A DNA stretch of 52,474 nt, from positions 1-52,474 of the forward strand of contig CANQKZ010000007.1 of assembly GCA_947624585.1 (NCBI GenBank), written 5' to 3'. Numbering within the stretch: position 1 is the first letter of the stretch; each line of letters opens with the position of its first letter. The DNA is from an uncultured Oscillospiraceae bacterium. GTDB lineage: Bacteria > Bacillota > Clostridia > Oscillospirales > Oscillospiraceae. Positions 2,487 to 52,474 of the stretch are shown piece after piece. Under the pieces are notes generated by a model, which saw nothing but the letters and a program-made list of their open reading frames with translations, made no database searches and had not been told where the DNA came from. Position numbers and translations under genes: made by a program.

Positions 2487-4154
2487 TCATTTCAGGCCGT
2501 TCTCGTAAGCCTCGATCATCTTCTTGAACGTGTGACCCGTACGACCGTGAAGCTCCGTCAGCACCCTGTCGGCGGTCTCCCCGGTGAAGAGGCGGATTCG
2601 GAGCCGCAGAACGCCGTTTTCGGCGGTCACCAGGATGCGGTCGATGTACCTGTCCACAAATTCTTTGGTGATGAGGCCCGAGGCCGCGTCCCGGCGGGCG
2701 TCCCGGAGGACCTGGCGGACGGTGTCGGCGCGCTTGCGCATCTCCGCCGGGGTGAGAAGGTCCGCCTCCAGCTCCCGGAGCTTCCGGGAGGCGTCCTCGA
2801 TCTCTTGGGCGCAGGCCCGGTTCATGGTGAGGAAGTCCCTGTCCTCCAGCTCCCCCATGGCGTTGAAGCTCAGAAGCTTGCTCCTCTTCCTCTCCGCCAG
2901 CTCGATTTTGGCCCGCAGCTCCTCCGCCCGCTTTTCCGTGTCCTCCCCGGCGGTGAGGGCGCCGTACATCTCCATATACTCCCCGATGAGCCCGTCCGCG
3001 TCCGCGTCGCACCGGCTGAACACCTCATAGAGCAGGGGCCTCAGCTCGTCCTCGTACAGGGCCACGGAGGGGCAGGAGCCCGCGCCGTTTTTGATCTTCC
3101 CGGCGCAGACCCACCGGGAATTTTTGTTCCCCCGCCTGTCCCGTGACTCCCGGCGGTAGTAGGGCATGCCGCAGTGGGCGCAGAAGAGCTTCCCGGTGAA
3201 GAGGTTGGGATGGTTGCACACGCCCCGCCGGTTCTTCACATCCTCGCTCCGGCGGCGCAGGACCTGGTTGGCCCGCTCCCACAGCTCCTCGGAGACGATG
3301 GCCGGGACGATCTCGCCCGTCTCGTCCCGGAACAGGACCCACTCCTCCGGCGGGAGGAATTTCTGCTTTTTGGTAAACATATCCACCACCTTCACCTTGT
3401 TGCCCGCGTACCAGCCCTTGTACTTGGGGTTGGCGATCATGCCGGACATGGTGGAGTGGGCGATTTTTTTGCCGTTCAGGTTCCGGTAGCCCTTCTCCCA
3501 GAAAAGCGTCTCCAGCCGCTTCATGCTGTACTGGCCCGTGGCGTAGAGGTCAAAGAGCTCCCGCACCATGGCCGCCTCGCTCTCGTCCACCGTGAGCCGC
3601 CCCCGGTCCTTCCTGTAGCCGAAGATGCGGCTGTTGCCCAGGACCACGCTCTGCCTGATGGCCTGCTGATGGCCGAATTTCACACGGGAGGACAGCTTGC
3701 GCAGCTCGTCCTGGGCGATGGAGGACATGATGGACAGGCGAAGCTCCGAGTCCTCGTCGAAGGTGTTGATGTTGTCGTTCTGGAAAAAGACCCCAACCCC
3801 GTCCGACAGGAGCTGGCGGGTGAACCGGATGGAATCCAGGGTGTTTCTGGCGAAGCGGGAGATCTCCTTTGTGATGATGAGGTCAAATTTCCCCTCCGCC
3901 GCGTCGGCGATCATGCGGTTGAAGTTCTCCCGCCGCCGGGTGGAGATGCCGGACAGGCCCTCGTCCACGTACCCCGGAACGAACTCCCAGGCCCGGTTGC
4001 GGCGGATCAGGTCCTCGTAGTAGCCGATCTGGTTCCCCAGGGAGTTGAGCTGTTCGTCCGACTCCGACGACACCCGCGCGTAGTAGGTGACCCGGAGGGG
4101 CAGGTCGTAGACCGATTTCGTCCTGAGCTGTTGACGCACAAAATGAAGTTCCAT
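2487..4154 (-). CDS. Large serine recombinase
   Basis: A 555-residue site-specific recombinase of the large serine family, used by phages and conjugative transposons to integrate and excise. The resolvase domain (about 20-175) opens with YYARVSS; Ser29 is the expected nucleophile. A recombinase domain follows (about 195-290), then a zinc ribbon with CAHC and later paired cysteines (about 320-375), a coiled coil (about 415-470) and a tail. The length is normal, so it looks intact. The ATG follows GAGGAGG. No phage structural, conjugation or excisionase genes are adjacent, so it may be the remnant of a lost element or a lone integrase. Its attachment sites are not evident. Confidence 0.93.
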   Translation of the reverse strand: MELHFVRQQLRTKSVYDLPLRVTYYARVSSESDEQLNSLGNQIGYYEDLIRRNRAWEFVPGYVDEGLSGISTRRRENFNRMIADAAEGKFDLIITKEISRFARNTLDSIRFTRQLLSDGVGVFFQNDNINTFDEDSELRLSIMSSIAQDELRKLSSRVKFGHQQAIRQSVVLGNSRIFGYRKDRGRLTVDESEAAMVRELFDLYATGQYSMKRLETLFWEKGYRNLNGKKIAHSTMSGMIANPKYKGWYAGNKVKVVDMFTKKQKFLPPEEWVLFRDETGEIVPAIVSEELWERANQVLRRRSEDVKNRRGVCNHPNLFTGKLFCAHCGMPYYRRESRDRRGNKNSRWVCAGKIKNGAGSCPSVALYEDELRPLLYEVFSRCDADADGLIGEYMEMYGALTAGEDTEKRAEELRAKIELAERKRSKLLSFNAMGELEDRDFLTMNRACAQEIEDASRKLRELEADLLTPAEMRKRADTVRQVLRDARRDAASGLITKEFVDRYIDRILVTAENGVLRLRIRLFTGETADRVLTELHGRTGHTFKKMIEAYENGLK

Positions 4155-6026: not shown

Positions 6027-6086
6027 CCCCCCCTCCCGGCGGCCCGGCGCGGCCTTGCAACGGGGTTGATTTCGGAGAGGTCCCCC

Positions 6087-6263
6087 TTAATTTCAAGAAA
6101 ATTTCCTTAATTTCAAACGAAAATCCTTAATTTCAAAGAAAATTCCTTAATTTCAAAGCCCCCAAAACCCCAAAACCCTTGCGGCGCAAGGAGTTTGCCC
6201 TTAATTTCAAAATTTCAGGCCTTTTTGGCCTTTTAAAACGGTTACAGCTTTGTAACTATTTGA
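6087..6263 (+). repeat. Left 177-bp inverted repeat with iterons
   Basis: TTAATTTCAA starts at 6087, 6107, 6127 and 6147, an exact 20-bp period, and once more at 6201. Between them lies the hairpin CCTTGC-GGC-GCAAGG (6177-6191). Then come two direct copies of GGCCTTTT (6218-6234) and the palindrome GTTACA-GCTT-TGTAAC (6241-6256). Evenly spaced short repeats next to palindromes are typical of a protein-binding origin or a transposon end. Confidence 0.9.
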
Positions 6264-6278
6264 AATCAGCGCGAAGAG

Positions 6279-7814
6279 TCACCGGCTTTTCAGGGACAAC
6301 GTGGCCTCCACGGGGACGAGCCTGGGGTTGACCACGAAGTATTTGGTGGACCTGCCGCCCAGGGGGCGGACGGTGGCCTCGCGGATATAGCCCCTGTCCT
6401 CCAACTCCCCCAGGGCCGCGCCGAACTCCCTGGTGGTGGGGAAACGGCCGGAGCATCTCCTGTACAGCTCCCGGCGGAGGCCGTAGATCCAGCCCTCCCG
6501 GTCCAGCAGCTCCGCGATGTACCTGGCGTCCTGCTCCAGGGCGGACGTCTCCTCCGCGTCGTACACCTTCTCCGCCTCCTTTCCCAGATACAGCGCGAAA
6601 AGGGCGGCGCAGCTCATAGTCGCCACGCTTATGGGCGTCCGGGTGGGGTCGCCGCTGACAGTACAGGTGTGGAGGATGGCCGCGATGCGCACCATGGCCC
6701 CGATCAGCTTCCCGCCCCAGTCGCGCATATTGGCCCAGGGGCCGGAAAGCTTGCGCTCTATATGGTCCTGCATCTCAAGACGTATCTCCTGGGCTTCGGG
6801 ACTCAGGGTGACGGTCCCCCTCCAGGGGGCGGTCAGGAGAAAGCGGACGAGCCCCCGGTAGTCCTCCTTCAACTCCTGTGGGACCGGGTCCGGGTTCGAC
6901 TTCCTTCGCCCCAGGGCCGTGGGGCACTTCACATACAGGAACCGGGCGGTGAGGCCCCGGCCCCGGAACTGGCTGTTCCCCGTCACCTCCCGCAGGACCG
7001 TGGGCTGGACCGTCAGCATCACCGTCAGGCGCGGGTCCTTCACCTGATTGACGCCCCGCCCGATGCGGTCCACCACGATCTCGTCCCCCGCGTGGGCCTT
7101 GAGATACACGTCCAGATTCCCCACGGATTCGTACCGTCCGGCGGCTATGTAGCTGAAAATGCCCCCCTCCGACGACGCCAGGGTGACGCACCCGCCCTGG
7201 GAGTCCATCAGGTCCACCAGCTTTTCCGGCGTGGCATCGTCCACCAGAAGACGGCAGGGCGCCTTGGGCTGAAAGGCCGCCATCTCCTCCGCCGCCTTGC
7301 GCAGCTTCTCCGACGCCCGTTCAAACTCCGGCGTCCCCGGCGCGGTGGAGGCCACGCCGCGCTGCTCGTTCTGGACGCACTTTTCCAGCGCCGCCCGCAT
7401 CCCCGCCGACCAGGCCACGTCCCCCGCCTCCAGCTCCCGGACCTCCCGCTCATACTCCCGCACCGGGTCCAGAAGGGCCGAGAGCACCGCGCTCTTCCGC
7501 TCCCCCGGCTCCGCCACCGCCATGGTAAACAGACACAGCGGCTCCCGCCAGTCCGGCGTCACCTCCACCGTGTACTTCGACTGGGCCGCCGTGGCCAGCA
7601 CCCCCAGGGACAGAAGCCCCGCCATCCGTATGTCCGTCTGCGTCGACTCCGCCAGGGCCGTCACGTACTTATACACCGGCTCGGGCAGCGAGTCCGCCGG
7701 GAAATCCGGCTCCTCCTCCTTTTTGAACTTCATGGGCACGGGCCAGGGAAGCTCCGCCACCCCCCGCAGGTCCCAGTCCAGAGTCGCCAGGTATTCCTCA
7801 TTATATCGCTCCAT
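6279..7814 (-). CDS. DUF3987 family protein (P-loop, helicase/primase-associated type)
   Basis: A 511-residue protein of the DUF3987 family, seen in plasmids, phages and integrated elements beside replication functions. A degenerate Walker A, AEPGERKS, lies at 101-108; PG-x-RKS is the form this family uses. The diagnostic middle follows: LLVDDATPEKLVDLM, SSEGGIFSYIAAGRY, NLDVYLKAHAGD and RGRGLTARFLY. The C-terminus (about 425-495) looks like a winged helix and could bind the iterons. AAGGAGGG precedes the ATG, and a strong promoter lies upstream. The gene is alone between 177-bp inverted repeats, with its stop codon 15 bases from the left one. A role in DNA replication or mobility of the unit is inferred, not shown. 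Confidence 0.82.
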   Translation of the reverse strand: MERYNEEYLATLDWDLRGVAELPWPVPMKFKKEEEPDFPADSLPEPVYKYVTALAESTQTDIRMAGLLSLGVLATAAQSKYTVEVTPDWREPLCLFTMAVAEPGERKSAVLSALLDPVREYEREVRELEAGDVAWSAGMRAALEKCVQNEQRGVASTAPGTPEFERASEKLRKAAEEMAAFQPKAPCRLLVDDATPEKLVDLMDSQGGCVTLASSEGGIFSYIAAGRYESVGNLDVYLKAHAGDEIVVDRIGRGVNQVKDPRLTVMLTVQPTVLREVTGNSQFRGRGLTARFLYVKCPTALGRRKSNPDPVPQELKEDYRGLVRFLLTAPWRGTVTLSPEAQEIRLEMQDHIERKLSGPWANMRDWGGKLIGAMVRIAAILHTCTVSGDPTRTPISVATMSCAALFALYLGKEAEKVYDAEETSALEQDARYIAELLDREGWIYGLRRELYRRCSGRFPTTREFGAALGELEDRGYIREATVRPLGGRSTKYFVVNPRLVPVEATLSLKSR

Positions 7815-7864
7815 ACTTACGTTCCCTCCTTATCTAAGTTTTATGAAGCTTTTTGATGGTTCGT

Positions 7865-7893
7865 ATTATAGCACAGTCGGAAGGAAAAAGCAA
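7865..7893 (-). promoter_or_regulatory. Promoter of the DUF3987 gene
   Basis: On the minus strand, TTGCTT (7888-7893), 17 bp and a perfect TATAAT (7865-7870). The promoter lies between the right inverted repeat and the start codon, so proteins bound to the repeat could regulate it. Confidence 0.75.
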
Positions 7894-7932
7894 GCCCTAT
7901 TTTGAATTATTTTAAAGCTTTCCCCTAGACGC

Positions 7933-8109
7933 TCAAATAGTTACAAAGTTGTAACCGTTTGAAAACGCCAAAAACGCCTGAAATTTTGAAATTAAGGGCA
8001 AACTCCTTGCGCCGCAAGGGTTTCCGGGTTTTGAGGGCTTTGAAATTAAGGAATTTTCTTTGAAATTAAGGATTTTCCTTTGAAATTAAGGAATTTTTCT
8101 TGAAATTAA
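7933..8109 (-). repeat. Right 177-bp inverted repeat with iterons
   Basis: The reverse complement of the left repeat with about nine differences. All five TTAATTTCAA boxes, the CCTTGC/GCAAGG hairpin and the GTTACA/TGTAAC palindrome are kept. The paired GGCCTTTT boxes of the left arm are both GGCGTTTT here, so the two boxes have changed together. Confidence 0.9.
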
Positions 8110-8123
8110 CGAAGCCGGGGCTG

Positions 8124-41580: not shown

Positions 41581-41630
41581 GGAACCTCTGAACAAATCGC
41601 CGCACCGATCTTGACGGCAGATTTTCCGGC
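41581..41630 (+). repeat. Short dispersed repeat, copy C
   Basis: It begins at the base after the stop codon of the LTA-synthase-like gene: GGAACCTCTGAACAAATCG followed by CCGCACCGATCTTGACGGCA. It matches the reverse of copy A over about 50 bp with few changes. Only one arm is present. It lies just upstream of the OLE promoter. Confidence 0.68.
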
Positions 41631-52365: not shown

Positions 52366-52474
52366 AATACTAATATTCAATCAAAATAAGACATTCACGA
52401 CGGTCTTTTTTCGCGTCAAGCTTCGTCATACGGCTTGGAAATACATACAGTATTCCCGGCGCCGCCTTCCTCGC
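52366..52474. repeat. MITE-like element, copy 2 (cut by the window end)
   Basis: AATACTAATATTCAATCAAAA followed by CGACGGTCTTTTTTCGCG and TTGGAAATACATACAGTATTCC matches copy 1 from position 18 onward at roughly 80% over the visible 109 bases. The right end is outside the window. It directly joins the truncated GyrI-like gene. Confidence 0.75.

Follow-up and report, generated by a model that had tools for sequence, protein, structure and literature searches.

The closest described systems to the locus we analyse here are SaPI Rep and SCCmec Cch2, in which, according to the available part of PMC7581432, a C-terminal domain of the protein binds iterons located just downstream of its own gene. 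The protein family of concern in the present study, DUF3987, is still of unknown function in Pfam and is named a helicase by PHROGs and in published work; the available portions of two papers describe it as a predicted helicase (PMC5862659) and use the domain as a marker for finding PICMI satellites (PMC10803314). The main texts of both papers lack the term iteron, and we did not find in print, in the open-licence literature, a rule that associates iterons with DUF3987 genes.

The stretch of DNA that we analysed, hereafter the window, comprises 52,474 nt from an uncultured Oscillospiraceae bacterium (GCA_947624585.1, contig CANQKZ010000007.1, positions 1-52,474, forward strand). Two inverted arms of 177 nt each, at 6087-6263 and 7933-8109, are 95% complementary and lie 1669 nt apart on either side of an intact DUF3987 gene, as an earlier note on this DNA had described for 177-bp inverted arms around a single gene. 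Each arm contains a direct repeat with 20-bp spacing, namely an iteron of 13 bp, TTTGAAATTAAGG, recurring with a 20-bp period. Read inward, the order is four 13-bp iterons (the outermost imperfect), a hairpin (e.g., AAACCCTTGCGGCGCAAGGAGTTT), a fifth iteron, ATTTCA and a second hairpin (GGTTACA..TTTGTAAC). The iterons of the left arm are at 6085-6097 (1 mismatch), 6105-6117, 6125-6137, 6145-6157 and 6199-6211, with hairpins at 6173-6196 and 6240-6257, and those of the inverted right arm are at 7985-7997, 8039-8051, 8059-8071, 8079-8091 and 8099-8111 (degenerate), with hairpins at 8000-8023 and 7939-7956. The 3.28-Mb genome contains 22 exact copies of the 13-mer, all of them in the six arms, and an 8-mer is found five times on either side of the DUF3987 gene as compared to a shuffle mean of 2.1; these two results lead us to conclude that the arrays are not due to chance. 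A reversed control pattern of the 13-mer gave a single match in the genome at up to one mismatch. In five of the arms the iteron cores are 97% identical and the spacers 77%, which supports the proposal that the arms are kept alike; the sixth, the right arm on contig C11, is out of register with one repeat missing, and the spacer value becomes 61-67% if it is included. No RNA family was matched by the repeats of four loci at the gathering threshold, and scans of a genome-contig collection gave no pattern match and, among 34 candidate stretches, no relative that could be confirmed. The window also holds near-identical short repeats at 243-287, 2337-2381 and 41581-41628, and its two ends, 18-124 and 52366-52473, are one repeat at 81%.

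The DUF3987 gene (YfjI-type; 6279..7814, minus strand) encodes a putative AAA+ initiator or helicase of 511 aa with no internal stop. Its product belongs to PF13148 (E=2.2e-88, 297 bits against a cut-off of 27, residues 59-419) and to phrog_2373, DNA helicase, with a conserved helicase core, and gave no NCBIfam match at E<=0.001. No primase domain was found within the 511-aa protein, in which only 58 residues precede PF13148, nor a primase gene among the scanned window neighbours. The gene was also said to have its own promoter, and this was confirmed: on the minus strand at 7865..7893, between the right arm and the start codon, lies TTGCTT-17-TATAAT with an extended -10, TGCTATAAT, where TATAAT occupies 7865-7870 and TTGCTT, 17 bp upstream, 7888-7893. 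This promoter can be aligned with those of two related species, G015 and G024, in which TTGC...TGTGCTATAAT is kept. A strict consensus promoter scan did not list it, TTGCTT agreeing with TTGACA at three of six positions, and instead listed another weak site that overlaps the right arm, with 0.6 sites expected by chance.

An AlphaFold2 model of the protein (pLDDT 88.8, pTM 0.76) predicts an MCM-like AAA+ fold plus a winged helix. The latter is read from the C-terminal order helix-strand-helix-helix-strand-strand, with helices at 425-440, 447-453 and 461-473 and strands at 444-446, 477-482 and 490-495; the domain, at residues about 425-496 (6327..6542, minus strand), is the predicted reader of the iterons. 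Foldseek returned 14 PDB matches at E<=0.001 (best E 2.5e-5), consisting of 13 MCM-complex chains, which from the entry titles we take to be MCM subunits, and one Cdc6/Orc1 entry; the structural match to MCM is weak, with TM 0.3-0.4 and rmsd 6-22 A. For viral DUF3987 proteins the best structural match has E=2.2e-23, and a search by sequence for a relative of solved structure found none at E<=1. On this predicted model and weak MCM match, the protein would have the make-up of the SaPI Rep-like initiators, an AAA+ helicase with a C-terminal DNA-binding domain.

The arms are not confined to the unit in the window, given that four further copies, 84-93% identical, are present on two other contigs of the same genome. 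The six arms form three inverted pairs, in the window and on contigs C13 and C11 (gene names on the latter two were read from translations). On C13 the pair flanks leuC-leuD, and on C11 it encloses about 700 bp (L010 3326-4030) between a relA/spoT-like gene and dtd. No gene was recognised in this interior, and the idea that it is a decayed DUF3987 gene was ruled out, there being no significant tblastn similarity. No recognised replication gene stands beside the arms outside the window. At their outer ends the C13 and C11 arms adjoin a second repeat of about 350 bp, repeat B. Copies of B that are 275 nt or longer number at least 44 in the genome (a lower bound), and in at least seven places two of them are neighbours in inverted orientation; B looks like a large MITE-like family. 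Examples are L009 2954-3328, 5896-6273 and 6947-7288, and the outer end is palindromic. In five of six pairs of joined B+A copies the arm (A) is better conserved than B, and the C11 pair shows the opposite.

Three inverted arm pairs in a single genome might suggest a minimal mobile element that ends at the 177-bp arms and in which DUF3987 is the sole protein driving movement, as had been proposed. We consider this improbable. The unit gave no match to a transposase or nuclease family among Pfam and PHROGs profiles, no target-site duplication was seen by eye at the arm ends, and we do not take the unit for an insertion sequence. What the other pairs enclose is likewise at odds with such an element, being either some 700 bp in which no gene was recognised or leuC-leuD, which is not arm cargo: in 23 of the 27 relatives whose fetched locus includes leuD and leuB, no more than 132 nt separate the two genes, and among the four exceptions G016 has a B...B' pair between them, 76-84% identical to the C13 pair, with no arm. 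On this spacing and this site we reject a cargo transposon made up of arms around leuC-leuD. Of the 28 relatives whose fetched locus includes both relA and dtd, 15 have a gap of no more than 40 nt between them, and in the others it reaches up to 1327 nt. Together the gaps at the two loci indicate that it was in this bacterium's own lineage that the arms came to lie in intergenic DNA, within stretches that contain B. The suggestion of recent activity in the earlier note thus holds insofar as the arms multiplied within the lineage, but they did so as intergenic pieces joined to repeat B. The genome search for the arm that it recommended recovered the four additional copies at home; the other 33 genomes of the genus gave matches of no more than 25-51 nt, for the most part to the hairpin. 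A number of genus genomes (L014-L030, e.g., L014 1501-1534) contain the arms' hairpin CCCTTGCGSCGCAAGG, often upstream of what is apparently the same leader, TTGACATTGG...ACAGTCTTCATTATGTAAGTG.

Relatives of the window protein occur in six of 34 genomes of the genus, its own included, and were not found in the other 28, many of which are incomplete drafts. In G015 and G024, which belong to other species of the genus, the orthologues are 61% identical over the matched part and the gene stands alone, at a locus different from that in the window. Both the change of locus and the patchy occurrence would suit a mobile element; the G015 arm, on the other hand, is single-copy in its genome. Upstream of the G015 and G024 genes are the same promoter and the same kind of hairpin, and an iteron, here TTTGTCA, is present upstream of the gene and inverted downstream, in few copies and with the downstream side degenerate. 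From this we conclude that the layout was kept and the iteron changed, the two-sided arrangement being present in three species and degenerate downstream in two of them. No empty site of the window unit was found in the relatives, as had been proposed for comparison, because the flanking genes (the sigma/anti-sigma pair and the downstream gene) occur there but never together within 1.5 kb, and the loci reach only 1.5 kb to each side. A weak helix-turn-helix hit near a phosphoribosyltransferase-like gene in G019 proved to be a longer, different protein.

Alternatively, the unit might be the relic of a dead prophage or satellite, a leftover helicase gene and origin whose arms multiplied passively through repeat recombination. 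Its relatives are of phage and satellite type, elsewhere in the genome the arms are joined to the abundant repeat B, and 1.9 kb from the left arm is a large serine recombinase gene, a phage-type integrase (2487-4154, minus strand; phrog_95, E=1.2e-107). Between this integrase and the unit lies an ECF sigma/anti-sigma pair, and the same pair occurs in relatives without the integrase; the downstream neighbour is a phosphoribosyltransferase-like gene (a label from reading, with no Pfam hit). A relic, however, would not be expected to have an intact gene with a dN/dS of 0.11 between G015 and G024 and of 0.28-0.29 against the window (where synonymous sites are near saturation), a conserved promoter, iteron cores more conserved than their spacers and a two-sided layout in three species, and we regard this explanation as unlikely.

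In the bacterial family as a whole, relatives at E<=1e-30 are present in 27 of 400 genomes. By eye, a short iteron array with an inverted counterpart often lies directly after the DUF3987 stop codon, and its repeat differs by lineage: TGGACA, TGGAAATGAT, AATACAGTA, TAGCAAAAG, GGGCCAAAA, TTGACAG and TATTTTGAG are examples. To the 28 of 33 genome loci used (L069, L111, L112, L115 and L117 were omitted as fragments, broken or truncated) were added the best 80 of 95 confirmed viral-contig loci; dropping three loci without a stop left 105, and taking one per 90%-identity group left 66. One 6-mer is present at least five times in 16 of these 66 DUF3987 3' regions, as compared to one of 138 control gene ends. 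One 6-mer is present at least four times, and at least twice per orientation, in 22 of the 66 (6 of 138 controls). Shuffling gave p<=0.01 for 19 of 66 3' regions, none of 59 upstream regions and four of 138 controls, and p<0.05 for 28, 3 and 22, respectively; the remaining 38 of the 66 do not reach p<0.05, and the iteron rule for DUF3987 genes is not universal. The k-mer statistic demands two G or C per word, and the window itself for that reason scores only z=1.8 in it.

Arrays were found in four of seven named records, namely phage NatCom_43819, Streptococcus phage Javan191, a Streptomyces plasmid and Bartonella pBT01, and in none of the three Drexlerviridae loci inspected. The Streptomyces plasmid, circular and of 18.45 kb, carries a primase/polymerase gene and a YfjI gene followed by eight TCTGTCA/TGACAGA sites, five in one orientation and three in the other; in pBT01, TTTTGAAGG-type repeats come after the DUF3987 gene. 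In G025 and G016 a CHC2 zinc-finger (DnaG-type primase) gene stands immediately before the DUF3987 gene, with phage-type integrase genes within a few kb, and in G025 a match to DNA-packaging gp3 comes after the iterons. On this context the two loci that were checked (L073 7293-14588, which includes the gp3-like gene, and L074) look like small integrated islands, perhaps satellites. They agree better than the window does with the make-up of PICI/PICMI phage satellites, in which an integrase, a regulator and a replication gene share one island. The presence of iterons beside DUF3987 genes in phages, plasmids and islands supports the proposed tie of the family to replication. Many phage loci have an AT-rich stretch between oppositely oriented half-arrays, an arrangement that is absent from the unit in the window, whose arrays lie 1.7 kb apart with the gene between them; the iteron period also differs, at 20 bp in the window as compared to about 9-10 bp, judged by eye, in the phage loci. 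SaPI origins, too, have an AT-rich stretch between oppositely oriented iterons. Among eight long DUF3987 proteins, three have an NrS-1 polymerase-like domain and the other five match no primase family. We also note tandem peptide repeats (SVSSVSS, SRMSRMS, THETHETHE) in the C-terminal tails of DUF3987 proteins on the viral contigs L193, L194, L197, L199 and L200, where iterons may lie inside the coding sequence.

Comparison of loci points to the C-terminal domain as the part of the protein that would read these repeats. For instance, in two pairs chosen by eye, L098 and L097 have ATPases 82% and winged helices 31% identical and their iterons are unrelated (TGGAAA-type as opposed to AATACAG-type), while L098 and L106, with ATPases 50% and winged helices 55% identical, have the TGGAAA-type iteron in common. 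Over 58 loci (the 66 less eight actinophage-like loci whose C-terminus was judged not alignable), iteron similarity correlates at 0.51 with winged-helix identity and 0.48 with ATPase identity; in partial Mantel tests the values are 0.22 for the winged helix given the ATPase, reached by none of 2000 permutations, and 0.09 for the ATPase given the winged helix, correlations that are modest and come from loci related by descent. Two pairs depart from the trend: the winged helices of L102 and L066 are 67% identical and their 6-mer similarity is 0, with iterons (TTGACAG, TGGACA) that are partly alike, and L096 and L099 have winged helices 68% identical and an iteron similarity of 0, a score explained by repeated words that are one base apart. 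As far as sequence comparison can tell, then, it is with the C-terminal winged helix, and not with the ATPase, that the iteron tends to change. Together with the lineage-specific iterons beside DUF3987 genes, this association lends support to the idea, raised in the earlier note, that the DUF3987 protein recognises the repeats, and we regard iteron binding by this protein as well supported.

We think it probable that the unit is an orphan replication initiator together with its origin, of phage or plasmid descent. The DUF3987 protein would be an MCM-like AAA+ helicase descended from the replication genes of phages, satellites or plasmids; its C-terminal winged helix would bind the 13-bp iterons, TTTGAAATTAAGG, at their 20-bp period, after which the ATPase ring would melt the DNA and be loaded onto it, a mechanism that has been put forward for SaPI Rep and SCCmec Cch2. 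This chromosomal clade has inverted iterons on each side of the gene, unlike those relatives in which a single array follows it. With the arms that were copied into two other regions of the genome, the protein would have six clusters of sites. Since the promoter lies just inside the upstream array, binding of the iterons might also autoregulate the DUF3987 gene. For the window unit we infer DNA binding, helicase activity, origin firing and autoregulation; it may still fire, or may now do no more than regulate itself.

The position of the promoter just inside an arm would equally suit a role in regulation or defence, in which a DNA-binding ATPase acts on arms that are operators or decoys, for instance by titrating the initiator of an invading phage. 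Two further arm loci stand near the leu and relA-dtd genes, and satellites and their phages do exploit iterons (PMC7145576, in the part available; see also PMC8263062). On the other side, no viral contig contains two adjacent iterons of the exact window pattern, PADLOC gave no defence hit and the helicase core is conserved, and we give this explanation little credence. A rather doubtful variant of the origin reading is that of a domesticated second origin, which would still fire from its two-sided arms and, when induced, over-replicate the DNA around it or give rise to a circular by-product; its DNA specificity would change through joint replacement of winged helix and iterons, and the two other arm pairs would be extra firing or titration sites.

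Our findings suggest that the origins of DUF3987 replicons lie directly after the gene, and which domain reads them; as winged helix and iteron tend to change together, such origins could be predictable from sequence. The window unit further suggests that an initiator-origin pair can persist alone on the chromosome, with iterons on both sides, in three species, and one may ask what benefit a lone pair of this kind brings to its host.

Compared with the known systems, the unit shares the family PF13148, a predicted replication helicase, with the DUF3987/YfjI helicases of phages, PICMI satellites and AEP primase fusions, but those proteins carry or accompany a primase, whereas the window protein is alone (PMC5862659, PMC10803314, in the sections available). 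Like PLE RepA/ori of the Vibrio phage satellites it would be a cognate initiator-iteron pair of a chromosomal parasite; PLE RepA, however, is a RepA_N protein, with no predicted helicase or primase activity in the accessible text of PMC7145576. With SCCmec Cch2 the likeness is that the isolated C-terminal domain of a helicase binds direct repeats 3' of the gene, and the differences are another helicase family, a partner polymerase-primase operon and three 5-nt iterons. SaPI Rep/ori, as presented in the same available part of PMC7581432, is likewise an initiator helicase whose C-terminal domain recognises iterons directly 3' of its own gene; SaPIbov1 Rep is DUF927-related and SaPI5 Rep of Primase_Cterm/D5 type, as opposed to the DUF3987 protein of the window, and SaPIs also encode a primase, in contrast to the lone chromosomal gene flanked by two arrays here. 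As in SaPI Rep-like systems, iterons adjoin the putative initiator gene, in the window on either side, and the unit most likely works in the manner of SaPI Rep and its ori, with a helicase of another family.
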